DNA of 64,000 nt from an uncultured bacterium (GTDB lineage: Bacteria > Verrucomicrobiota > Kiritimatiellia > RFP12 > UBA1067). This document shows positions 9,668-64,000 of this stretch, piece after piece. The position numbers and the translations under genes were made by a program. The first letter of the stretch is position 1; every line of letters starts with the position of its first letter. Below the pieces are notes generated by a model that was not told where the DNA came from, ran no database searches, and worked only from the letters and a program-made list of their open reading frames with translations. Location: positions 1 to 64,000 of the forward strand of contig CACYQU010000003.1 in assembly GCA_902776615.1 (NCBI GenBank). Direction: 5' to 3'.

Positions 9668-10327
9668 TCAGGACAATTCGTCAAGCCGCTTCGTCTCGCC
9701 GAACACGATCAACCTGTCGTCCTCGCGAAGAACATCGGTCGCCTGCGGTATTATGACGGTGCGAGGCTCTTTGGAATCTTCGGCGGGACGGCGGATGCAA
9801 AGAACGGTAAGACCGGTGGCCGTGCGGAAGCTGGACTCGGCGAGGGTTTTGCCGCGAACATTCTCCGGAACGTCTATCTCGGCGATGGAATACCCCTCGG
9901 AGACTTCCAGGAAATCGACCACGTCGTGGTTGGCTATCGCCCTGGCGAGCCTGTGGGCGCTGTCGCGATCGGGGTATACGACGGAATCCGCGCCAATGCG
10001 CCTGAGTATCTTTCCGTGAAGTTCGCTCGACGCCTTGGCGATAACGGTCTCTACGCCCAGTTCCTTGCTGTTCGCCGTGGCCATCATGGACGCTTCTATG
10101 TTGGACCCTATCGCCACAACAACAACGTCGCATTCGCCGAAGCCGGCCTCCTCAAGCACATGAGGCTGCGTGGCATCGCCCTGAATCGCCGTGGCGAACT
10201 CGCTGGCCGACTGCATTGCGGGCCGGTTGCGATCGACCAGGACGACCTCCATTCCGGCATTCATCATCGACTCCGCAAGCGACATGCCGAACCTTCCGGC
10301 GCCGATTATGCCGATGCGCTTTTTCAT
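9668..10327 (-). CDS. ktrA: Potassium-uptake regulatory subunit (KtrA/TrkA, RCK protein)
   Basis: 219 residues. An N-terminal Rossmann RCK-N domain with GIIGAGRFG (residues 5-13) and an acidic residue at the end of beta 2 (VDRN) binds nucleotide; the RCK-C domain covers about 140-219. It is the cytoplasmic gating ring of a Ktr-type channel. Its membrane partner is encoded 22 kb away (31771-33084), so the pair is unlinked. The ATG overlaps the stop of the ABC ATPase gene by four bases. Confidence 0.9.
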   Translation of the reverse strand: MKKRIGIIGAGRFGMSLAESMMNAGMEVVLVDRNRPAMQSASEFATAIQGDATQPHVLEEAGFGECDVVVVAIGSNIEASMMATANSKELGVETVIAKASSELHGKILRRIGADSVVYPDRDSAHRLARAIANHDVVDFLEVSEGYSIAEIDVPENVRGKTLAESSFRTATGLTVLCIRRPAEDSKEPRTVIIPQATDVLREDDRLIVFGETKRLDELS

Positions 10328-11121
10328 GTTTCAAGCTCCATCTTGCGGGCTTCGCCGACCAGTTCCCTGGAATAGGGATGCTTCGGATTGCTGAAGAATT
10401 CCGCAGGGTTGCCGGATGTTTCGACGACGCGCCCGTTTTTCATCACAGCGAGCTTCGTGGCCATCTGCGAAACCACGCCCAGGTCGTGGGTTATGAGCAG
10501 CACGCCGGAATTCGCCTGATGCAGGCGCTTCATGAGACGCAACACCTGCGCCTGTATCGTCACGTCGAGAGCCGTCGTGGGCTCGTCGGCTATGACGAGA
10601 TCGGGACCGAGCATCAAACCCATCGCTATCATCACGCGCTGCTGCATGCCGCCGGAAAGTTCGTGCGGATACGCAAGCGCCCGCTGCTCTGGATCGGGTA
10701 TGCCCACTTTGCCGAGCCATTCAAGCGCATGCGCGCGAGCGGCCGGCTTGGACATCTGCTCGTGCAGAAGTATCGTTTCGACCAGCTGGTCGCCTATTCT
10801 GTGAAGCGGCGAAAGCGAGCCCATAGGGTCCTGGAACACCACGCCTATGCGCTTGCCGCGCAGTGCGCGCAAGTCGGCGAGCGGCATCGTAAGCGTATCC
10901 ACCCCGTCCAGCAGGATTCGCCCTTTGGGATAGAACGCCGGGGGGCTCGGCAGCAGCCGGGCCACACTCATCGATACGGAACTCTTGCCCGAACCGGATT
11001 CCCCCACGATACCGAGAACTTCGCCGCGTTCGAGCTCGAGGTTCACGTCCATTGCGGCCTTTGTGACCTCACCCTCGTCGTTGCGGAACGATACATCCAA
11101 ATCTTCAATTTTGAGAAGCAT
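10324..11121 (-). CDS. ABC transporter ATPase, OppD/DppD type
   Basis: 265 residues with Walker A GESGSGKSS (residue 40 onward), Q-loop VVFQDPMGSLSP, signature ELSGGMQQRV, Walker B LVIADEPT and H-loop LLITHDLG. The sequence and the ADEPTTALDVTIQAQ stretch are those of the oligopeptide/dipeptide/nickel family ATPases. No permease, binding protein or second ATPase is adjacent, so this is an orphan whose partners must lie elsewhere. It lacks the C-terminal oligopeptide extension (about 60 residues, sometimes with an iron-sulfur site) of many OppD proteins. It sits between the carboxypeptidase and ktrA in the same transcription unit. Confidence 0.88.
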   Translation of the reverse strand: MLLKIEDLDVSFRNDEGEVTKAAMDVNLELERGEVLGIVGESGSGKSSVSMSVARLLPSPPAFYPKGRILLDGVDTLTMPLADLRALRGKRIGVVFQDPMGSLSPLHRIGDQLVETILLHEQMSKPAARAHALEWLGKVGIPDPEQRALAYPHELSGGMQQRVMIAMGLMLGPDLVIADEPTTALDVTIQAQVLRLMKRLHQANSGVLLITHDLGVVSQMATKLAVMKNGRVVETSGNPAEFFSNPKHPYSRELVGEARKMELET

Positions 11122-53429: not shown

Positions 53430-53438
53430 ATTATACCA
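53430..53438 (-). promoter_or_regulatory. Extended -10 promoter of ilvBN
   Basis: Minus-strand TTTGGTATAAT; the hexamer (53430-53435) ends 10 bases before the ilvB ATG and overlaps the TAA stop of the RAYT gene. Confidence 0.75.
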
Positions 53439-54525
53439 AACTACGCATAACAGGGCTAGCCCCCTCGCCGCGAGCGGCTCGATTCGGCGAGTACCTGCCC
53501 ATCGCTTTCATCATCGTCGCGAGCATTCCGTTTGGCGCGATGTCGCCGACCCATATCTCGTCGGCGTGGCGAAGAACGTATTCATTGCACCATGCGGCGA
53601 CTTTCTTGTTGAGGCGTGATCCGGGCCGCTGCGGCGAAATAAAAAGAATGCGACCTTCGGCCAAGGCTGCGAGAAGATCGTTCGAGAGCTCGCTTTCGAG
53701 GGGCAGCCCCTGGGGGACGACCTTGATTGCCGAGCGGCCTTTGGCAAGAGCGCGGCGCAGAGCCTCGCGCTCCTGCGCGCTCGTGAATGTCGATATGATC
53801 GGCATGTCGTGCGGGGCTGAAGCCCCGCGGACCGAGACAGCCGCCCCTCCCATATCGGAGCGGCCGACTTCACGCCTCCAAACCATTTTCGGCTTAAGAT
53901 CGCTCGCCCAGAAACCATGGGAAGCGACGAAGGCGATTCGCGGGCCGTTGAGCAGATCGAGGTTGCCGAGCGAGTACTGGGTCACTGCGCCGAAGCGGTC
54001 GCGAGTCCAGTTCGCCGGGTTTTCGCGAATGTAGCGGCGGAAGGCGGCGAGCTGCTGCTCGCTCGTAACGATCTTGTCCCAATAGTCGAACTGCCAAAGA
54101 TGGTCGCCGATGTCATCGACCTCGCCCGCGCGGCGCATCTTGCCGTAGATATAGCCGGTTCCGCCCTTGAAGCGGCCCAGCAGAAAGCCGAGGTGATGCT
54201 CCTTGTTCGTTGGACGGAACTTGATTCGCACGATGGCGTGGAAGTGGTTGGGCATGACGACAAACTCGTCAAGCTCCAGCTCGGGGTATTTCGCCGGCAA
54301 CTCGCGCCAGTATGCCTCGACCCTGCGCCCGAGCTCGTTCAGCTCGCACCGGTCGCCCACGATCGCGCCGAATATCGACTTGTTGTGCGCAGTCTGCCAC
54401 GTGACGAAGAACCAGCCGTTGCGATAGTTGATGTTCGCGTTGCGAAGCGACTTTCGAAAGCGCGGCACCTCTGCCGCGCTTCCACGACGCTCGCCCGCAT
54501 CATCTCTCGCCGATCTCACGCACAT
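53431..54525 (-). CDS. REP-associated tyrosine transposase fused to a Rossmann-like domain
   Basis: 364 residues. The N-terminal part (about 1-190) is a Y1/IS200-type HUH nuclease: VVMPNHFHAIV supplies the HUH pair and AFRRYIRENP the likely nucleophilic Tyr, as in RAYT proteins. The C-terminal part (about 215-350) is unusual for RAYTs: STFTSAQEREALRRAL, AIKVVPQGLP, and ILFISPQRPGSRL with HADEIWVGDIAPNG read like a DprA/LOG-type Rossmann fold. A REP-like hairpin at 53811-53828 lies in the coding sequence between the two parts. Start: the ATG at 54525 lies 6 bases after TGGTATAAT, so the mRNA is predicted leaderless. REP-like hairpins and a 17-bp repeat array lie upstream. Confidence 0.78.
   Translation of the reverse strand: MCVRSARDDAGERRGSAAEVPRFRKSLRNANINYRNGWFFVTWQTAHNKSIFGAIVGDRCELNELGRRVEAYWRELPAKYPELELDEFVVMPNHFHAIVRIKFRPTNKEHHLGFLLGRFKGGTGYIYGKMRRAGEVDDIGDHLWQFDYWDKIVTSEQQLAAFRRYIRENPANWTRDRFGAVTQYSLGNLDLLNGPRIAFVASHGFWASDLKPKMVWRREVGRSDMGGAAVSVRGASAPHDMPIISTFTSAQEREALRRALAKGRSAIKVVPQGLPLESELSNDLLAALAEGRILFISPQRPGSRLNKKVAAWCNEYVLRHADEIWVGDIAPNGMLATMMKAMGRYSPNRAARGEGASPVMRSLV
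53811..53828. repeat. REP-like hairpin inside the RAYT gene
   Basis: GCGGGGCT-GA-AGCCCCGC: 8-bp perfect stem with a 2-base loop. Same design as the hairpin at 54655-54672, and it falls in the linker between the two domains of the encoded protein. Confidence 0.7.
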
Positions 54526-54531
54526 GCCGAA

Positions 54532-54540
54532 ATTATACCA
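54532..54540 (-). promoter_or_regulatory. Extended -10 promoter of the RAYT gene
   Basis: Minus-strand TGGTATAAT; the hexamer ends 6 bases before the ATG at 54525. Confidence 0.7.
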
Positions 54541-54559
54541 CAATTCCTGCCCTCGCGCC

Positions 54560-54659
54560 CATATCGGACCGACGCCCATATCGCCGATGCGCTCATATCA
54601 ACACGGCGCTTGCATCGACACGGCGCTTGTATCGGTCCGCGCTCATATCGGTCCGGCGG
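54560..54659. repeat. Degenerate tandem repeat of about 17 bp, six units
   Basis: Units start at 54560, 54577, 54594, 54613, 54630 and 54644, most with CATATC or CATCG/TATCG, followed by variable GC-rich bases; CACGGCGCTTG occurs twice in units 3 and 4 and ATCGGTCCG twice in units 5 and 6. It lies directly upstream of the RAYT promoter. The 54526-54977 stretch carries this array, a hairpin, a surface-protein remnant and a promoter but no intact gene. Confidence 0.65.
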
Positions 54660-54672
54660 ACTTTAGTCCGCC
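54655..54672. repeat. REP-like hairpin beside the RAYT gene
   Basis: GGCGGACT-TT-AGTCCGCC: 8-bp perfect stem, 2-base loop, overlapping the end of the 17-bp array. RAYTs are known to mobilise short palindromes of this kind. Confidence 0.7.
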
Positions 54673-54679
54673 ATTTCAT

Positions 54680-54905
54680 CTCCACCCCGACCATGAAGAA
54701 CCGATCGAGCGCGTTGGTGGGCGAGTGCCATTCTTCGCCCGACTCCAGCCCCGCCTTGCCATAGATGGTGTACCGTCTCCGCGACTCCTCCGCCGCGCTC
54801 AGCTTCGGCGACCATTCGACGACCGGCGCGCCGCCGACCATCGTAATCGTCGCGGCGAACACCGAGTTCGTGTCGCTCGGGTCACGCGCCAGCGCCCTGC
54901 CACAG
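54680..54905 (-). pseudogene. Surface-protein C-terminal remnant, copy 1
   Basis: The minus strand encodes DPSDTNSVFAATITMV...GAPVVEWSPKL...RRRYTIYGKAGL...SPTNALDRFFMVGVEMK with no start codon or N-terminal part; the frame runs on past the expected end to a stop near 54593. It is the end of a beta-rich extracellular module. The 204 bases 54680-54883 match 56112-56315 without gaps and with about 19 mismatches by hand count. Confidence 0.65.
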
Positions 54906-54936: not shown

Positions 54937-54963
54937 GAAGGTCTGACCTTCTTTGCAATGTTT
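54937..54963. repeat. Left 27-bp direct repeat of the Y1 element
   Basis: Begins GAAGGTC-T-GACCTTC (perfect 7-bp arms) followed by TTTGCAATGTTT; identical over 27 bases to 56048-56074. It marks the left end of the element in the 5' leader of the transposase. Confidence 0.75.
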
Positions 54964-54977
54964 TGCAGGGAGAAACA

Positions 54978-56057
54978 ATGTCACATTCAAACAACCGTGT
55001 AAAAGAACACGAGACTGTGCATCATCTTATCAGCAGAATAGCGCACCGCGTCTATTTTCTGAAAGACGACGAACGCAAGGATTTCCTGGAGATCGCCCGC
55101 CGGGCAGCGCAGTTTTCGGGCGTACAGCTGCTTGGCTGGTGCGTCATGGGGAATCATTTCCATCTGCTTGTGTTCTTGCCGACGCCACGGTTTGTGGACG
55201 AACAGGAAGTAATTGAACGATACGGAGCGCTAAAGGGACAGCTGGCGGCCTCGTCAATTACGGAAATGTTCATTGAATGGCGCAAGCAAGGCGAAACGGG
55301 AGAGCGTCGCGTGTCCGAATGGCTTGATGCACAAAGACGTCGCATGTATGACGTAGGCATATTCATGAAAATCGTCAAACAGTGGTTCACAACAGAATAC
55401 AACCGCCGAAACGGACACAAGGGAACACTATGGGAGTCGACGTATTTCGACAGGGTTGTTCCGCGATGCTTGTCAGAAATGGCGAAGTGCCTTGCCTACA
55501 TTCACCTGAATCCAATACGTGCTGCTGCCTCGGACAAATTCGATGGATATGCGTGGAGCAGCTACTCGGCGTTTCGGAAAGGCGATCCGACCGCGACAGC
55601 CGGAATGCATTTCATTTACGGGAAAGAGGAATCCGATGATGCTATCGCCGGAAGGCATGAGTTTCTTCTCGAGGAATTGCTCGAGAAGGAGAAACTGCGC
55701 CGTGCGGAGGAAATCGCTCGAAAGCGAGCAGCGGGATATGAAGTGCCGACGGATCCACTTACGGACGAGGCGCTCGTGGCACAGCGGGCAGCCCATCTTG
55801 CCGAAGTACAGAAAGCATCTGTCGAACTGCGCGAAGCCCGAAACTACGAGAAGCGGCGTAGCGAGAGAGGTGCGTTGCGCGAAAAGGAAACACTATCCCT
55901 TCTCGAGGCAAATCCGGAAATGAACGCAGCCCTGCTGTCCGAACGGCTGGGCGTTGGCGTTCGCACGGCCTACTGCATCCTGAAACAACTGAAAGACAAA
56001 GGCGTCATACAGCAAGAAGCCGGCCGTTGGCGCACAAACATTGCAAAGAAGGTCTGA
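54978..56057 (+). CDS. Y1 (HUH) transposase with C-terminal winged helix
   Basis: 359 residues. The N-terminal Y1_Tnp domain has the HUH motif GWCVMGNHFHLLVFL and a candidate catalytic Tyr in QWFTTEYNRRNG; conserved LAYIHLNPIRA and YAWSSY are typical of the family. A charged helical linker (about 215-305) leads to a winged-helix end (LLEANPEMNAALLSERLGVGVRTAYCI). The ATG at 54978 follows AGGGAG. The stop codon sits inside the right-hand palindrome. One of the few plus-strand genes. Confidence 0.9.
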   Translation: MSHSNNRVKEHETVHHLISRIAHRVYFLKDDERKDFLEIARRAAQFSGVQLLGWCVMGNHFHLLVFLPTPRFVDEQEVIERYGALKGQLAASSITEMFIEWRKQGETGERRVSEWLDAQRRRMYDVGIFMKIVKQWFTTEYNRRNGHKGTLWESTYFDRVVPRCLSEMAKCLAYIHLNPIRAAASDKFDGYAWSSYSAFRKGDPTATAGMHFIYGKEESDDAIAGRHEFLLEELLEKEKLRRAEEIARKRAAGYEVPTDPLTDEALVAQRAAHLAEVQKASVELREARNYEKRRSERGALREKETLSLLEANPEMNAALLSERLGVGVRTAYCILKQLKDKGVIQQEAGRWRTNIAKKV

Positions 56058-56102: not shown

Positions 56103-56315
56103 CTACCGCAACTCCACCCCGACCATGAAGAACCGGTCGAGAGCGTTGGTCGGCAAGTGCCATTCTTCGCCCGACTCCAGCCCCGCCCTGCCGTAGATGG
56201 TGTACCGCCGCCGCGACTCCTCCGCCGCGCCCAGCTTCGGCGACCATTCTACGACCGGCGCACCGTCAACCATCGTTATCATCGCGATGAACACCGAGTT
56301 TGTGTCGGTCGGGTC
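56103..56315 (-). pseudogene. Surface-protein C-terminal remnant, copy 2
   Basis: Encodes DPTDTNSVFIAMITMVDGAPVVEWSPKL...RYTIYGRAGL...LPTNALDRFFMVGVELR and a stop at 56103. It has the proper module end but no N-terminal part, and starts at the same point as copy 1. The novel operon's last gene ends 12 bases upstream. The 56058-56326 stretch contains nothing else but the right repeat of the Y1 element. Confidence 0.65.
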
Positions 56316-56326
56316 GGTGCAAACAA

Positions 56327-56563
56327 TCACTTTTTACGTAGTGCACGTCCTATAAGCCATGCGATCAAAACAACAGCTCCCCATGCGAACACGCTCCCAA
56401 ATGAATCAAAATTCTTCTCAGAAAGAAAATCGTTGAAAAACCAACTAAATATCCCCCCTATGATCTCGAATACCCATACGACCGCTTTTACAACCAGCCA
56501 TCCAACGACAACTATTAAAGCAAGGACAGCACCACCTTTTACTATGTCGATTAGGTTACGCAT
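56327..56563 (-). CDS. Small two-helix membrane protein, last gene of the unknown operon
   Basis: 78 residues: a hydrophobic segment at about 11-45 (LALIVVVGWLVVKAVVW and on), a polar loop (FLSEKNFDSFG) and a second helix at about 57-72, with a basic end RALRKK. Positive-inside prediction puts both ends in the cytoplasm. It follows the 66-residue Cys-rich gene by 26 bases. No family recognised; with the large PH-like protein it would be the membrane component. Confidence 0.62.
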   Translation of the reverse strand: MRNLIDIVKGGAVLALIVVVGWLVVKAVVWVFEIIGGIFSWFFNDFLSEKNFDSFGSVFAWGAVVLIAWLIGRALRKK

Positions 56564-56589
56564 GACTCATTCCGTTCAGATGACTTCGA

Positions 56590-56790
56590 TTAAATCCGAG
56601 ACCATTTCGCCCAATAAGCGCAGTTTGCACCAGGTGTACTCATAGACCCAGCTTTAACACAACAAGGTTGTCGGGCCGAATCACACCGAACAACTTTTGC
56701 GCTTCCAAGATTCTCAAGCTTGCGCATCCCTTTCCAGTTTTTACATGTGGCACAAGCACGACTCTCTACCCTAATAGTAGTGCAACCCAT
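56590..56790 (-). CDS. Small Cys-rich protein with a WxKW tail (paralogue B)
   Basis: 66 residues with Cys at 3, 13, 16, 36, 43, 44 and 57. CATCKNWKG and NCAYWAKWSRI match CATCKWWRG and DCAAW...WSKWERI of the adjacent gene, so the two are paralogues. The pairs look like metal-binding knuckles. The ATG at 56790 is chosen for a perfect GAGGAGG ribosome site 5 bases upstream; the longer frame is rejected. Confidence 0.68.
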   Translation of the reverse strand: MGCTTIRVESRACATCKNWKGMRKLENLGSAKVVRCDSARQPCCVKAGSMSTPGANCAYWAKWSRI

Positions 56791-56800
56791 ACGAACCTCC

Positions 56801-57007
56801 TCATATTCTTTCCCATTTTGACCATCGGTTACAAGTATGTGTCGCGCCACGCTCCACGCGCCACGCAGCACAATCGTTGCCACGAGGCATAATGCCGTCA
56901 ACCGTAACATACTTCGGCTCACGTGCGCCAACGAAATTCACTTCGCGGCTTCCGCGCCACCACTTGCATGTGGCACAGACTTTTCTTGCTATTGGTACAT
57001 TGTACAT
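56801..57007 (-). CDS. Small Cys-rich protein with a WxKW tail (paralogue A)
   Basis: 68 residues with Cys at 11, 14, 46 and 59 and the end RWSKWERI. Shares CATCKxW and the aromatic tail with the next gene. GGAG lies 8 bases before the ATG at 57007, one base after the stop of the preceding gene. Four Cys could bind one metal ion; function unknown. Confidence 0.66.
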   Translation of the reverse strand: MYNVPIARKVCATCKWWRGSREVNFVGAREPKYVTVDGIMPRGNDCAAWRVERGATHTCNRWSKWERI

Positions 57008-57008
57008 A

Positions 57009-57215
57009 TTACTTTCTCCATTTTGGCCATTCACCTAGACTCGCAGATGTTTCATCAACATCATGCTCAGAAGAATTACACCTACGCAATTCATCGCCTA
57101 TGTCATCAAATTCATGGCTTAGATCCTGTAAGCCTGTTACAATCCTATGTGCGGCATCGCCAAACACATAACGTCCTAGCGCACCTACCAATGCGCCTGC
57201 TATTTCTTCCGACAT
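57009..57215 (-). CDS. Small acidic protein with a WxKW tail
   Basis: 68 residues. The N-terminal part has a weak amphipathic/hydrophobic helix (EEIAGALVGALGRYVF), the middle is acidic (LSHEFDDIGDEL), and the end is GEWPKWRK, echoing the WxKW tails of the two downstream proteins. It begins 3 bases after the stop of the large gene. No family recognised. Confidence 0.6.
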   Translation of the reverse strand: MSEEIAGALVGALGRYVFGDAAHRIVTGLQDLSHEFDDIGDELRRCNSSEHDVDETSASLGEWPKWRK

Positions 57216-57218
57216 TAC

Positions 57219-60200
57219 CTACCTCCTTCTGGTTTTAGAAACGACATTTATGTAACTACAAAGCTTTTCGAGGCTATCAACAGGGATGTTAATCAACTGA
57301 CAGACCTTCGAATTGATGGTTATGGCATTTTTTTGAGCCTCCACGCTCTCTATACTTTCAAAAGGAACTCGAACAGGGTCTTCCATGAAGTTTTTGAAGT
57401 ACACCGCATCATTGGTGACAAGCATACCCTCCTTAGCACTACCGAAGACAGTTGAATCAATCAAGAAACGAACAGAGTCGATGGGCTCCCGCACTTTCAT
57501 TGAAACGAATGCGTTCCGAAGTTTCTTCTCAGGGATACTTCCTTCCACAAAGAGGCAACTGCACGGAGATTTTGCAAATTCCGCTATATCCGGAGTGTCG
57601 GCAGATTGTCCATCAGTTTTTACTGCGGATAACCGATCAAGACATGTTGATTCTTTAGCGAAAGCAACTAATTTAACGAGCGTATCTCTACAGGCATCTG
57701 CATCGCCATTGGAATTGGTAAAGTCGAACACAACCCCTTTCTCAAAAGTTATTTCGCCACGATTCGGTTTTGACGGGGAGTCAAGCGAAGCAAGCTCTTT
57801 CCACGAATACGCATTACGAGCAGTTTCCACCGTATCGTTCTTCCATATGACACCCCATCGCGATACGACAAGCCCGATTTTTGCCGAACCAAAGATCGTT
57901 GTGTCAACTATGGCGAAAACGCCGTCGTCCTGTACACCAGAAAGATATGTTCTCGCACCTACAAGTTTCTTGGGTGGGATGCCGTCTTTGAAATAGAAGC
58001 CATTGTCATTTGATGAAGTTATTGCAGCTTCAACCGCTGCGAAGAACGCCTCGGACGAATCACGTTTTGCCGCAGCCTCTTCGCGGGTTTGATACTCTAT
58101 GCCAAAAGCTGTTCGCGCAAGTTTGTCAAACCGCTCCAATTCTCTGTTCACGCGCTCAAGTTTCCAAGTGCCATCAATGCCAAGTCGCGTCGCCATTGCA
58201 ATAATATCCGATTTAAGTTTGATGGCAGATGCTTCGTCGGTAATCGTGCAGCTTTTCTCGAAATCAACAAGCTCTCGCTGCTTGGCAGCTTCTTCCCGGG
58301 TTTCGAAAATTCTGTCTCCTGCTCTTCTTGCTGCTTTGTCAAAACATTCAAGCGCCTGTGTGACACGCTCCATTTTCCACGCGCCGTCAACTCCAAGCTT
58401 TTTTATGAACTTCTCTAATTTAGCTTTAGCTTCTATGGCTGACTCTTCGCTTGACAGATCTAGTTCTGCCTCATATGCAGAAAGTTTCCTTTGTTTGTCG
58501 GCTTCATCACGGGTGGGGAACTCCCTGCCGTCAACCGTACGGTATTCACAGTCAAGCCGTTTTAAAGCAGCATCTATCACTGCAAGATCTTCAGATATGT
58601 CGAGTTCCAATTCCCCTGCTGCCTTCACAATCCTATCTCGATAATCATGAGCACTACTCTCGGCGGACAAATCCGCATCACCGACTATTTTTTTCAGCAA
58701 CTCTCTCTTTAACGGATTGACATCGACTCGTGCCGCGCGCGCGATATCATTGATAGGACCTTTCCCGTTGTCATCCAAGTAGCAATAGCTGACCACATCT
58801 TTTTTGAACGGGCAGAACTGAAGCATTTTTAACTTTGCTTCGTCTCGCCCTGTATCTGCGAAGTTACCGTTCCCTATCTCATCGTTTTCTAATAGTTCTA
58901 GAATGTCCGAGGCCGCATCTTCATTGTCTGAAACTCCGCTTTCACCTAGTGTCCACCCATTTTCTTCTATCATCCTTCGAAGAAAATCTTTGGTGGAATT
59001 CACTGTCGAACAAATCTGGACGAATATTCCAAAATGCAGTTTCCGCATTATCATGTCGGCATATGTTTCCTTATCAACGTCATAGTCTCCAGAAACGAAA
59101 ATTGCCATCATTTCATCTATTTCATCCCCAACAGTTTTCACATTATTCAATAACTTTGAGATGAAATTGTCGGCCTCTCTGTGACAGTCATCGGGTAAAT
59201 CAAATAGCTTTAATTCCCATTCAACGTGGCGTCTAAGATCCTTCTCCGCCTCCTTGAGGATGCTCTTCCAGCTATGAGCGGCTTCGTCCGGCGAAATGTC
59301 TCTATATTTTGGAGGAGCTTTTTCTTCGTCGGCACATTCCTGATCTCCATATTCTGCGAGGTCCTTCCAAAATGACCAGAAACTCCAATTGGCATATTCT
59401 GGCAGTCCATTTTTTACGATGCCTCCGTAAATTGCAACTTCGCCAGCTTTAGGTTTAGACGAGTTGACGGATTTTTCCTTTTTTTTGTTTTTCTTACCAG
59501 GCTTCAGCTTGTTTATGGCAATTGCCGCTTCAGACGCTTCGCACATGGAATTTTTCTTATCTTTTTCATCATCCCGGCGATGTCTGTTGCTGCGACTTTT
59601 GGATGATGAAACGATTCCGCCGATATCCTCTGAAGTCAACTTTTCGTTCAATTTCTCTATGTCTATTTTTGCTTCTCGAACTATATCATTAATTGGACCT
59701 TTGCCGCCATCGTCAAGATAACAATACGCCACTACCTCGTCATTGAACGGACATAATTGCAACATTTTCAATTTTGCTTCTTCAATAGTCGTGTCCTTAA
59801 AATCTCCTTTCCCGATTTCGCCGTCCTTCAGCAATTTCAAAATCGTTAATGCCGAATCTTCTTCTTCGCCATTCCCTATTTCACCAAGTGGGTATCCATT
59901 ACTATCAATCACTTTTCTGACACAATCTTTCGTTGCATTCATAGCCCAGCAGATTTGCACATAGATGCCATAATACATCTTCTTCATCACTTTTTCGACA
60001 AAGTCATCCTTATCACCATCAAAATCGCCTGATGCGAACTCTTCCATTATAGCATTTACTTCCTGCCCAGCCTGTTCCACATTGTTCATATAAGACACTA
60101 TACATTCCTTGACTTTCTCTCTATCTAGCTCTGGGATATCAAATAACTCTAATTCCGTTCTTGCATAAAGCCAAAGCCGCTTTGTCGCATCCTTGAGAAT

Positions 60201-60482
60201 GTCTTCCCAACGTAGCGCTGCATCCATATGATTTAGGTCGCGATACTTCGGCGGAATCTCTTCTTCGTCTGCACATTCTTGATTCCCATATTCGTTAAGA
60301 TTCTTCCAAATAGACCAGAACGCCCAATTATTACGTTCACGTTCGCCACATTTTACGATACCACCATATATTGCAACTTCACCGTCTTTCAAGCGAGATG
60401 CTTTTTGCGATTTCGAGCCGCTTTTCTTCGGCTTCTTCACTCCTGTAGGCGCATTACCTGTTTGCTTTGCTATTTTAGGCAT
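57219..60482 (-). CDS. Large repeat protein with two PH-like domains, unknown family
   Basis: 1087 residues, no signal peptide or membrane helix. Order: basic tail (1-32); repeat A (about 33-285) and repeat B (about 346-590), clearly duplicated, both starting GEVAIYGGIVK, both with ADEE.. PPKYRD and both ending YCYLDD-x-GKGPINDI; a Lys/Arg-rich linker between them; three helical repeats (about 610-825) with EFPTRDEADKQR, IFETREEAAKQR and EYQTREEAAAKR; two PH-like domains (about 828-960 and 977-1087) with TIFGSAKIGLVV and TVFGSAKEGMLV. A GGAAG ribosome site precedes the ATG at 60482. First gene of a five-gene operon behind a structured leader. AT-richer than its surroundings, suggesting transfer. 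No enzyme motif seen; a scaffold is the likeliest role. Confidence 0.7.
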   Translation of the reverse strand: MPKIAKQTGNAPTGVKKPKKSGSKSQKASRLKDGEVAIYGGIVKCGERERNNWAFWSIWKNLNEYGNQECADEEEIPPKYRDLNHMDAALRWEDILKDATKRLWLYARTELELFDIPELDREKVKECIVSYMNNVEQAGQEVNAIMEEFASGDFDGDKDDFVEKVMKKMYYGIYVQICWAMNATKDCVRKVIDSNGYPLGEIGNGEEEDSALTILKLLKDGEIGKGDFKDTTIEEAKLKMLQLCPFNDEVVAYCYLDDGGKGPINDIVREAKIDIEKLNEKLTSEDIGGIVSSSKSRSNRHRRDDEKDKKNSMCEASEAAIAINKLKPGKKNKKKEKSVNSSKPKAGEVAIYGGIVKNGLPEYANWSFWSFWKDLAEYGDQECADEEKAPPKYRDISPDEAAHSWKSILKEAEKDLRRHVEWELKLFDLPDDCHREADNFISKLLNNVKTVGDEIDEMMAIFVSGDYDVDKETYADMIMRKLHFGIFVQICSTVNSTKDFLRRMIEENGWTLGESGVSDNEDAASDILELLENDEIGNGNFADTGRDEAKLKMLQFCPFKKDVVSYCYLDDNGKGPINDIARAARVDVNPLKRELLKKIVGDADLSAESSAHDYRDRIVKAAGELELDISEDLAVIDAALKRLDCEYRTVDGREFPTRDEADKQRKLSAYEAELDLSSEESAIEAKAKLEKFIKKLGVDGAWKMERVTQALECFDKAARRAGDRIFETREEAAKQRELVDFEKSCTITDEASAIKLKSDIIAMATRLGIDGTWKLERVNRELERFDKLARTAFGIEYQTREEAAAKRDSSEAFFAAVEAAITSSNDNGFYFKDGIPPKKLVGARTYLSGVQDDGVFAIVDTTIFGSAKIGLVVSRWGVIWKNDTVETARNAYSWKELASLDSPSKPNRGEITFEKGVVFDFTNSNGDADACRDTLVKLVAFAKESTCLDRLSAVKTDGQSADTPDIAEFAKSPCSCLFVEGSIPEKKLRNAFVSMKVREPIDSVRFLIDSTVFGSAKEGMLVTNDAVYFKNFMEDPVRVPFESIESVEAQKNAITINSKVCQLINIPVDSLEKLCSYINVVSKTRRR

Positions 60483-60499
60483 TTTCCACTTCCTTTCAT

Positions 60500-60682
60500 G
60501 TTGCCGCACAAAGACAACAAAGTCCCCGCGTGCGTACCGCAGAGGCGACTGGTATGCCCGAAAGGAAACGCGACGCGGGGACGAAATCGGCATAGTGCGC
60601 CCAGTGGACGCGCCAAGACAATTTATCTTTGCGTTGTGCCTTCCTTTCAAGATGATTACCAGTCTTCCTGCGGGTTGGCAAC
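60500..60682 (-). ncRNA. Structured 5' leader, candidate RNA switch
   Basis: Read on the minus strand. Base helix GUUGCC (60677-60682) with GGCAAC (60500-60505). A 10-bp helix GUCCCCGCGU/ACGCGGGGAC (60573-60582 with 60522-60531). Another helix GACUGGUA/UACCAGUC (60657-60664 with 60547-60554) continuing as GAAAGGAA/UUCCUUUC (60641-60648 with 60560-60567); this crosses the 10-bp helix, so they form a pseudoknot or alternate. The ribosome site (60489-60498) repeats the TGAAAGGAAG of 60640-60649, so UUCCUUUC can pair with either. The predicted transcription start from the -10 box falls at the first base of the base helix. No known RNA class recognised. Confidence 0.55.
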
Positions 60683-60689
60683 TGACGGT

Positions 60690-60695
60690 ATTATA
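60690..60695 (-). promoter_or_regulatory. -10 promoter of the leader and unknown operon
   Basis: Minus-strand TTGCTATAAT (extended -10, TGC before the hexamer). Expected start at 60682-60683, the 5' end of the structured leader. The gap 60696-60840 shows no gene. Confidence 0.65.
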
Positions 60696-60840
60696 GCAAA
60701 ATTCGCCGCTTCTGTGCGAGCGGACTTCACCTCACGCCGCCAGCCGCCTCTTTCGGACAACCAGCCACCGTAATATTACACGCAGGAGACGCGAGAGAAT
60801 GACAGCAGAGACGAATTTCAGTAAAAGTCTGAACCAAAGG

Positions 60841-62165: not shown

Positions 62166-62774
62166 TCAAAACTCATTCTCAATCGCGGCGATCATGCGCT
62201 CAACACGGGTCTTTATCTGCGAGACGGAGTTGCGCGGAATGTTGAACTCGGCGGCGACCTCGCCTATCGGACGCTCCTCAAGCACATATGCGCGATAAAC
62301 CGCTTTTGACTGCGTAGAAAGCGCCGTCTTTGTAAGCGCCCACTCGACAGCCGCCCTGCGCCGCGCAAGCCGCCACTTTGCGTCGATCGCCGCAGCCGTT
62401 TCGGATTCGACAGCCGCCTCGACGCCCGATTCGGGGTCGTCAAGCGAAACGCACACTCCCTCTCCGCGCGTCACACGCTTGCGCCATCGACTGACAAGTT
62501 CATTTCTCACAAGCGTCGCGAGATACCGGCGGAACTTGCCAGAATCACCGCCCACCTTCACGCGCCCTTCCCGCAAGACTTCCACGAGCCGCATGAAAAT
62601 CTCCTGAACCACATCCTCGCTCTCGTCTTCGCTTCCGCGCTCCTCGGCAAACGCCTTGATCGCAGGTGCATACAGCTCGAAGAGTCGCGTCCATCCGGCT
62701 TCGTCGCGTATGCCAGTCTTGTCCGACGCAAGCCGAACGAGTAGCAAAACCGGTGTATCGGGAAAGTTCGCCAT
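62166..62774 (-). CDS. ECF-family RNA polymerase sigma factor
   Basis: 202 residues. Sigma-2 region with EDVVQEIFMRLVEVL and sigma-4 helix-turn-helix IGEVAAEFNIPRNSVSQIKTRVERM. Between them RKFRRYLATLVRNELVSRWR-type region 2.4. The ATG at 62774 overlaps the kinase stop by one base (TGATG), so it is co-translated with the kinase. Sigma factors of this type are often governed by the adjacent Ser/Thr kinase; no anti-sigma gene is present. Confidence 0.9.
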   Translation of the reverse strand: MANFPDTPVLLLVRLASDKTGIRDEAGWTRLFELYAPAIKAFAEERGSEDESEDVVQEIFMRLVEVLREGRVKVGGDSGKFRRYLATLVRNELVSRWRKRVTRGEGVCVSLDDPESGVEAAVESETAAAIDAKWRLARRRAAVEWALTKTALSTQSKAVYRAYVLEERPIGEVAAEFNIPRNSVSQIKTRVERMIAAIENEF

Positions 62775-64000
62775 CACTCCTTCCCCAGCGCGAGCCTCAG
62801 CGTGCTGTTCCATCCCCATTCGCCGACAAGCGACTTCTCGGCAATGCCATCCGGCCCGAGTTGGATGTGTTTCGGCCTGCCTTTTTCATCTGCCCCTTCC
62901 GTCTCGCGGCAGATCGTCCGCCCCTGTCCAACGATATCGTAGACGCCCCAGGCGTTCGGCGGCTTCGTCCGGACTCTACACGGCATCTTCGCCATAATGC
63001 TTTCCCACTTGACACCCTTCTCGGCGGCGAGCGCCTTCTTGTCCGCGACAGACGGACCCTCCACGCCGAGCGCAGACGCGTCCGCCGCGTTCGCGCCACC
63101 AGCCGTTGACGCAATGGCGAGTTCGTTCGTCGACGGAAGCCTGAATATGCATCCTCGCGGCAGATGCGCAGCGAAACGGCGGTTGAGTTCGTCGATGAAT
63201 CTCACAATATCCGTCATGGACATAGCGATAGCCGGCTCATCGTCCGCGCCATCGCGCCTATTTCCTGTGACGCGCCACCACTCGGCGTTAGTAACATGGC
63301 TTGCACCGATCCAAAACGGCGCGTCCGATGAATCGCGGCATTCGACCATCTCGATGCGCACGCCATCACCAAGATCGAAGGTGAGTGGGGGAGTTTCGTT
63401 TGGCCATGCAGAGCGTGTAGAATAGAACACCAAAGTAGCCGCGATTACGGCGCAGATGGAGCCGATAAATGCAAGGCGCGTCAAAACATTCCTGTGCGGA
63501 CGAACTGCGTTCGTCCGCGCTTTTCGCAGAAACTCGACAAGCTTCACCGGTCTTACCGCCGGGTCGTCAGAAAGCATCGCCGGAAGTATTTTGTCCCAAG
63601 GCCCCTCAAGCGGTTCCAGAAGCCGCAGAGCATCTGTTCCAGGCTCGTACCATATGCCGGTCAGCAGGCGAAAGAACACTACGCCGAGCGCATATACGTC
63701 GGACGCCGCGCTCGCCTCTTCGCCTCTCTTGATTTCCGGCGCGAGATATCCACCCGTTCCCATGACAAGCCGCCGCGCCGATTCCTCGTATCCTGCGACG
63801 ATGGTCTTCTCGACTCCGATCTCGCGCTTGATGCGTCCATGCTCGTAGCGGGAGATTCCGAAGTCGACGAGAACAGCGTCGTTCTTCGCATCGAGAAGAA
63901 TGTTCGATGCCTTTACGTCGCGATGGACTATTCCTTCGGCGTGTATGCAGTCGAGCGCGGACGCTATCGACTCCATCCAGCGAAGACGGTCGGCGTCCGT
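62774..64000 (-). CDS. Ser/Thr kinase fused to an FGE-sulfatase-like domain (N-terminus outside window)
   Basis: At least 408 residues visible; the gene continues past the right edge, which holds the N-lobe. The catalytic loop is IVHRDVKASN, DFG is DFGISRY, the activation segment has GTGGYLAPEI, and DVYALGVVFFRLLTG is subdomain IX. A single helix (about FIGSICAVIAATLVFY) separates the kinase from a C-terminal FGE-sulfatase (SUMF1) fold: PFWIGASHVTNAEWWRVTG. Kinase inside, FGE-like domain outside the membrane is the predicted topology, so it could sense an extracytoplasmic signal and act on the sigma factor. Confidence 0.88.
   Translation of the reverse strand, partial: TDADRLRWMESIASALDCIHAEGIVHRDVKASNILLDAKNDAVLVDFGISRYEHGRIKREIGVEKTIVAGYEESARRLVMGTGGYLAPEIKRGEEASAASDVYALGVVFFRLLTGIWYEPGTDALRLLEPLEGPWDKILPAMLSDDPAVRPVKLVEFLRKARTNAVRPHRNVLTRLAFIGSICAVIAATLVFYSTRSAWPNETPPLTFDLGDGVRIEMVECRDSSDAPFWIGASHVTNAEWWRVTGNRRDGADDEPAIAMSMTDIVRFIDELNRRFAAHLPRGCIFRLPSTNELAIASTAGGANAADASALGVEGPSVADKKALAAEKGVKWESIMAKMPCRVRTKPPNAWGVYDIVGQGRTICRETEGADEKGRPKHIQLGPDGIAEKSLVGEWGWNSTLRLALGKE

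Follow-up and report, generated by a model that had tools for sequence, protein, structure and literature searches.

What does an operon do when none of its products belongs to a recognised family, and what governs its transcription? The question is raised by a locus in a stretch of 64,000 nucleotides (hereafter the window; positions 1 to 64,000 of contig CACYQU010000003.1, assembly GCA_902776615.1) from an uncultured bacterium of the order RFP12 (Verrucomicrobiota; Kiritimatiellia), in which five minus-strand genes, coding for proteins P0001 to P0005, form an operon at 56327-60482 with intergenic gaps of 3, 1, 10 and 26 bases. A sequence-only reading of the window had singled out this tight operon as AT-richer than its surroundings, free of recognised families and preceded by a structured leader. 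The gene coordinates agree exactly with the gaps that it gave, the GC content is 41-51% across the operon against 57-64% in most flanking kilobases, and scans of the five proteins against Pfam, NCBIfam and PHROGs returned no significant match. The operon is a real, rare accessory module, and it stands behind a previously undescribed, phylum-wide class of cis-regulatory RNA that is most likely a transcription attenuator. It is this leader, and not the proteins of the operon, that is the part most worth following.

A structured leader RNA shared across the phylum

About 190 nt of leader are predicted to be transcribed ahead of the operon. A putative extended -10 promoter element, TGCTATAAT (60690-60698, on the minus strand, as are all parts of the leader given below), lies just upstream as a consensus match only, and TGnTA-type -10-like boxes occur at the same place in the closest members of the leader family (loci L023, L024, L025, L029 and L039). 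The leader is indeed structured: its minimum free energy (MFE) fold has -86.2 kcal/mol (z = -4.4), and none of 200 shuffles was as stable. What the sequence-only reading missed is its role as a widespread, conserved element. Within the 300 nt upstream of P0001, 259 nt align at 90% identity with a stretch that, in genome G062 (L023), precedes a relative of P0003, yet the gene sets downstream differ. In an alignment of five leaders, the 5' and 3' strands pair with compensatory changes. A covariance model seeded from five loci (R1) detected the leader in 27 of 162 genomes of the order, and a second model (R2) in 96 of the 162, including 31 of the 48 good ones and spanning 17 of 33 genera, with up to 14 sites per genome. 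When R2 was run on a sample of the phylum, 50 of 388 genomes had the leader, among them 15 of other orders in the class and seven outside the class, and 338 were without a match. The genome of the window itself has 11 sites with E < 1e-6, the next best being at 0.017; this clean gap in scores and the 338 genomes without a match served as the controls on the model. For a few of the sites in the genome of the window, the search gave the wrong strand, since the rod into which the leader folds is nearly self-complementary.

The core of the leader (60535-60675; R2 score 100.2 bits, E 3e-24) comprises P1, an AA/GCC internal loop, P2, a GGGC internal loop, P3 and an apical hairpin, with the consensus UCN4GA-AA-P2 / P2'-GCC-UCN4GA. 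In the window, the 5' strand of P1, CCGCAGG (60667-60673), pairs with its 3' strand, UCUGCGG (60537-60543), in a covarying helix; P2, also marked by covariation, joins GACUGGUA (60657-60664) to UACCAGUC (60547-60554); and P3 (60641-60651 with 60557-60567) is drawn from the MFE fold and is helix 3 of the covariation test, its register varying between members of the family. In the internal loop between P1 and P2, the conserved AA (60665-60666) faces the conserved GCC (60544-60546).

The helices vary freely while their pairing is kept. In a 23-member alignment, 19 of the 22 pairs have changes on both sides, and 88 cells with such both-sided changes were counted, where shuffles gave 25.8 +/- 4.4 and slid controls 13-30. 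All 59 further members that were retrieved, which lie outside the set used to build R2 though they were found with it, keep P1, AA/NCC and P2, the lowest score being 11.5 against a highest of 9.0 among 2360 dinucleotide shuffles; GCC, whose CC was an anchor, is present in 52 of them. Among 74 distinct members, 60 different P1 strands occur with pairing retained, and the variable pairs (2-5 of P1; 0, 1 and 3 of P2) are 99-100% paired, against 38-44% in shuffles; the compensatory changes include G-U pairs. AA and CC served as anchors in the 74-member test, and their invariance rests on an unanchored alignment (A4), in which the AA columns are invariant. Just upstream of P1, many members have a further short 5' hairpin (such as TTGCG-TTAT-CGCAA) that seems to covary (L135-L138, L128, L129 and L145); it is not obvious in the window.

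A permissive Rfam search with the window leader and 12 further member loci gave only sub-threshold chance matches, and a literature search, being limited to open-access papers and so weak evidence, found no paper on a riboswitch or structured RNA of the Kiritimatiellota. Acido-Lenti-1 RNA (RF01687) is likewise a structured RNA reported from Lentisphaerae, but it is listed as not cis-regulatory (PMC2864571), and the RF01687 model does not match the leaders of this family. Riboswitches and attenuators with an overlapping terminator, such as the crcB and pfl motifs (PMC2864571), share with the leader a position in the 5' untranslated region, conserved helices with internal loops and an overlapping terminator-like stem; the leader differs in having no Rfam match in any of the 13 sources, a consensus of its own and a heterogeneous regulon, and it was found in one phylum, to which our searches were confined. 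The named contigs with the same leader subtype as the window are gut metagenome-assembled genomes (goat, sheep, yak and others), labelled Kiritimatiellae, Lentisphaerae, Verrucomicrobia or unassigned; no exact match to this subtype was found among viral contigs. We conclude that the phylum has in this leader a new class of structured RNA, strongly supported and without an Rfam entry.

The leader precedes many different genes

Members of the class lie just 5' of genes on the same strand. At 84% of sites a long open reading frame (ORF) begins just downstream, whereas in the mirrored direction the figure is 24%; the distance from leader to next gene has a median of 45 nt. Naive ORF calls downstream of the leader number 49 on the same strand and eight on the opposite one, whereas upstream there is little bias (29 and 23). 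In raw counts over 113 proteins encoded downstream, from which no enrichment for defence genes is claimed, Pfam gave FGE-sulfatase (9), Sel1 (7) and zinc ribbons (4), TPRs, and single SNF2, GmrSD, Eco57I, NERD, Hsp70 and phage-integrase proteins, and PADLOC gave a DrmD-like helicase, a type II methylase, an FRG protein and others. In the genome of the window, as read by eye, copies of the leader precede a methylase-like gene, a gene for a secreted protein and others. The leader thus precedes many mostly uncharacterised genes, for surface, repeat and anti-phage-type proteins. That it marks defence operons only was considered and rejected, most downstream genes being of other kinds or uncharacterised. 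The most frequent product behind it is a secreted family beginning ...(M/Y)PTKxE(I/L)xxAxxLV, several members of which have FGE-sulfatase-like domains (L075, L076, L077, L079, L081, L083, L084, L087, L089, L090 and L092).

The leader as a probable transcription attenuator

In 42 of 52 members, a GC-rich stem can form around the 3' strands of P1-P3, with a U-rich run after it. When defined by the U-tract, the arms of the stem pair on average at -19.2 kcal/mol in cis, against -14.6 kcal/mol across loci. In the window, a 10-bp helix between the 5' arm, GUCCCCGCGU (60573-60582), and the 3' arm, ACGCGGGGAC (60522-60531), encloses the 3' strands of P3, P2 and P1, and the run after it, UUUGUUGUCUUU (60510-60521), qualifies as a U-tract. 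The 5' arm closely precedes the 3' strand of P3 and the 3' arm closely follows that of P1, and by this geometry the rod of about 25 bp and the terminator hairpin should exclude each other, which makes attenuation the most likely reading. The RNA would adopt either the rod or the GC-rich hairpin with its U-rich run; in the rod fold, polymerase would read into the operon, in the terminator fold, transcription would stop before it, and the balance between the two would be tipped by a signal that the conserved internal loops sense. Beyond the fold and the stem, then, we infer termination or antitermination, the direction of control, and the existence and nature of the signal (ligand or reader). 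Predicted folds of truncated leaders have the window rod forming first in growing transcripts.

Several points count against this reading. The cis pairing of the arms ranks in the best 5% in only 12 of the 42 members, and several are no better than across loci; the window has a weak U-tract, and its rod exceeds the terminator fold in stability by 7.8 kcal/mol; and the regulon is too heterogeneous for a ligand to be named. As for the helices, the trimming of members on the AA/CC anchors relied on best pairing and so inflates the pairing somewhat, although the shuffled null went through the same search; these members had, besides, been found with a model of this very structure. Given its weak U-tract and favoured rod, the window copy may be mostly on, read-through being its possible default.

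What might read the leader can be framed in two ways, both of them sub-hypotheses of attenuation. A trans-acting RNA-binding protein, or the transcription machinery itself through antitermination, could read it and exert global control over accessory genes. This is a serious possibility, if somewhat short of probable: the very diverse regulon and many copies per genome are as seen with antitermination or stress regulators, and there is a strong link to a family of small four-cysteine (4-Cys) proteins that includes P0003 (see below) in nine of 19 loci of that family, but P0003-family genes are absent near most copies of the leader and occur in only 17 of 95 genomes, so that this family cannot be the general reader, and no candidate reader gene was identified. 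We consider it rather doubtful that the leader is a metabolite- or ion-binding riboswitch, in which a small molecule at the AA/GCC and GGGC loops would stabilise P1-P3 against the terminator. Conserved internal loops amid freely covarying helices, a terminator resembling an expression platform and placement upstream of genes in up to 14 copies per genome would all fit such a switch; riboswitch classes, however, usually control a recognisable pathway, and a regulon of FGE-sulfatase-like, Sel1, TPR, zinc-ribbon, defence-type and many uncharacterised products suggests no shared metabolite. Finally, a mobile palindromic DNA repeat (REP/RAYT-type or a transposon end) near genes by chance is highly improbable, for although the element is multi-copy and, some 5 kb downstream of the leader, there are RAYT-type Y1 transposase genes, its orientation toward a long downstream ORF is fixed (84% versus 24% mirrored) and not independent of genes, its compensatory changes include G-U pairs, a U-rich run follows the outer stem, and its helix sequences differ between copies in one genome, unlike the near-identical copies of recently moved repeats.

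That a new orphan RNA-switch class serves throughout the phylum as the master attenuator of biological-conflict and surface genes, with one signal, sensed at its AA/GCC and GGGC loops, opening many accessory operons together, is in our view unlikely. If true, such an attenuator would open anti-phage-type operons (DrmD-like SNF2 helicase, GmrSD, Eco57I methylase, LeoA-type dynamin, HerA, FRG and BnzA-like) and would amount to control of the defence repertoire at the RNA level.

The proteins of the operon

The first gene codes for P0001, of 1087 residues (57219-60482, minus strand, as are the other four genes). As the sequence-only reading had it, this is a duplicated repeat protein: a domain of about 270 residues is present twice, with copies that are 50% identical. 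The two helical copies (residues 31-310 and 345-660) are followed by TREEA-type repeats (about 655-850) and two further C-terminal domains. The AlphaFold2 model of the helical domain is mostly helical (mean predicted local distance difference test, pLDDT, 75), and Foldseek found no match to it in the PDB. The proposal of two PH-like domains could not be confirmed; the model of the C-terminal region is of low confidence (mean pLDDT 63) and had no PDB match at E <= 0.001. Nor did a PDB sequence search with P0001 give a match, and the protein has no family in Pfam or NCBIfam. Residues 978-1057 (57312-57551), however, have a match in the N-terminal region of BnzA, a protein of the anti-phage system Bunzi (PADLOC profile PDLC03833, E 7.9e-23; the best stretch covers positions 21-99 of 544). 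Homologues of P0001 are rare: a 658-residue protein behind a TM2/zinc-ribbon gene in G012 (L042), a protein in G146 (L080) and, for the C-terminal domain, one in G137.

Four small proteins follow. P0003 (68 residues; 56801-57007) and its paralogue P0004 (66 residues; 56590-56790) are members of a new small 4-Cys family with the consensus CATCxWWxGxR ... C ... C.RW.KWEKL, whose P0003 relatives occur in 17 of 95 genomes of the order, in eight genera. P0002 (68 residues; 57009-57215) is an orphan, without a match to this family or to any other sequence searched. The three had been grouped by a shared WxKW end; the motif is literally present in all of them, but only P0003 and P0004 are related, and P0002 was rejected as a family member. 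The last protein, P0005 (78 residues; 56327-56563), is hydrophobic and probably has two transmembrane helices. The small reading frames are real, given the spread of the P0003 relatives and the joint conservation of P0004 (E 7e-36) and P0005 (E 5.8e-40) in the sister operon L080 of G146. The latter runs leader, FRG protein (PADLOC PDC-S15, E 2.8e-44), 112-residue protein, 1108-residue protein, P0004, P0005, and its large protein combines DUF1232 with several BnzA-like stretches (E 2.1e-26 for the BnzA match). P0004 and P0005 are thus conserved partners, whereas the large protein varies.

At nine of the 19 P0003-family loci, the leader lies on the same strand, about 1 kb or less upstream of the family gene or its operon (in the window, it was counted upstream of the operon that holds P0003). 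At some ten copies to a genome, the rate expected by chance is well under 1%, so that the association is real. The neighbours of the family include TerB-like proteins and dynamin-like GTPases matching LeoA/LeoBC (L023, L027), a HerA-type ATPase (L026) and a similar large protein (L025), and, in sequences read by eye, a second FRG protein beside a vWA protein (L028), an Hsp70-like protein (L024), a NERD-type helicase (L032) and another dynamin-like GTPase (L039). In L024 and L025, the leader and the P0003-family gene are nearly identical and the genes behind them differ (Hsp70-like versus HerA-type), so that leader and gene together behave like a fixed head with exchangeable cargo. A small DUF1232-like protein recurs near P0003-family loci (L032, at 10088-10504, L035, L036, L037, L038 and L023); it is fused into the large protein of L080. 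Travelling with the leader, the 4-Cys family is a second new marker for locating conflict-type operons.

A possible defence or stress role

The sequence-only reading had pictured a large scaffold with small metal-binding proteins and a membrane effector, a picture that remains conjectural. The likeliest account of P0001, the 4-Cys proteins and P0005, though we give it somewhat less than even credence, is that they form a defence or stress module, either intracellular or associated with the membrane, that is related to the BnzA/FRG/TerB/dynamin toolkit. An anti-phage role is plausible and compatible with the BnzA-type C-terminus of P0001, the FRG gene of the sister operon (PDC-S15) and the P0003-family operons with LeoA/LeoBC-, HerA- and TerB-like genes. 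It counts against a defence reading of the proteins that the homology is only partial. The Leo-type dynamin, the HerA systems and the FRG candidate are co-operonic with P0003-family genes or the leader in L023, L027, L026, L025 and L080, but none of their genes is in the window operon.

Two more specific accounts fare less well. The five genes could constitute a Bunzi-like anti-phage system with a new N-terminal module, which is doubtful. P0001 and its L080 homologue match BnzA, an FRG partner is present in L080, and the DUF4143 protein encoded beside the operon is PADLOC PDC-S01; but only about 80 of the 544 BnzA positions are matched in the best stretch, with P0001 adding its duplicated helical domain and repeats, and relatives of P0001 occur in very few genomes. 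Bunzi has been linked to TerB (PMC10952713), and no model of BnzB or TerB matched any of the five proteins. With BnzA in part and no BnzB/TerB partner, the window operon was rejected as a Bunzi system proper. An envelope- or cell-surface-stress module in place of a defence system is unlikely. It would suit the hydrophobic P0005, the many secreted or lipoprotein-like products behind the leader and the extracytoplasmic function (ECF) sigma factor and Ser/Thr kinase encoded upstream, but no periplasmic or outer-membrane domain was recognised in the five proteins, and the context of the P0003 family is mostly one of cytoplasmic, defence-like genes.

Surroundings of the operon

Both flanks that had been reported were found, a DUF4143 ATPase upstream (the PDC-S01 match, E 5.6e-159) and Y1/RAYT-type transposases downstream. 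The ECF sigma factor and kinase pair is at 62166-63976 (minus strand), and homologous pairs adjoin P0003/P0004-family loci in L023, L024, L025 and L038; a P0003-family cassette may on this account occupy a preferred site beside the pair. On the other side are two different RAYT-type Y1 transposase genes within 3 kb of each other (53431-54579, minus strand, and 54963-56057, plus strand), beside which lie two similar short frames with FFMVGVE (56103-56330 and 54593-54862). The first of these frames, on the minus strand after P0005, contains FIAMITMVDGAPVVEWSPKL and has a close relative directly after the L080 operon too; it may be a surface-protein remnant or part of a cassette boundary.

Significance

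Most sampled genomes of one gut bacterial order have the leader, and it is scattered through the phylum, which makes it a strong candidate for a new class of riboswitch or attenuator. With it, a regulon of mostly uncharacterised genes is defined at once; it also gives a regulatory handle on uncultured rumen bacteria, and makes it possible to test whether anti-phage and surface arsenals are jointly switched at the RNA level.

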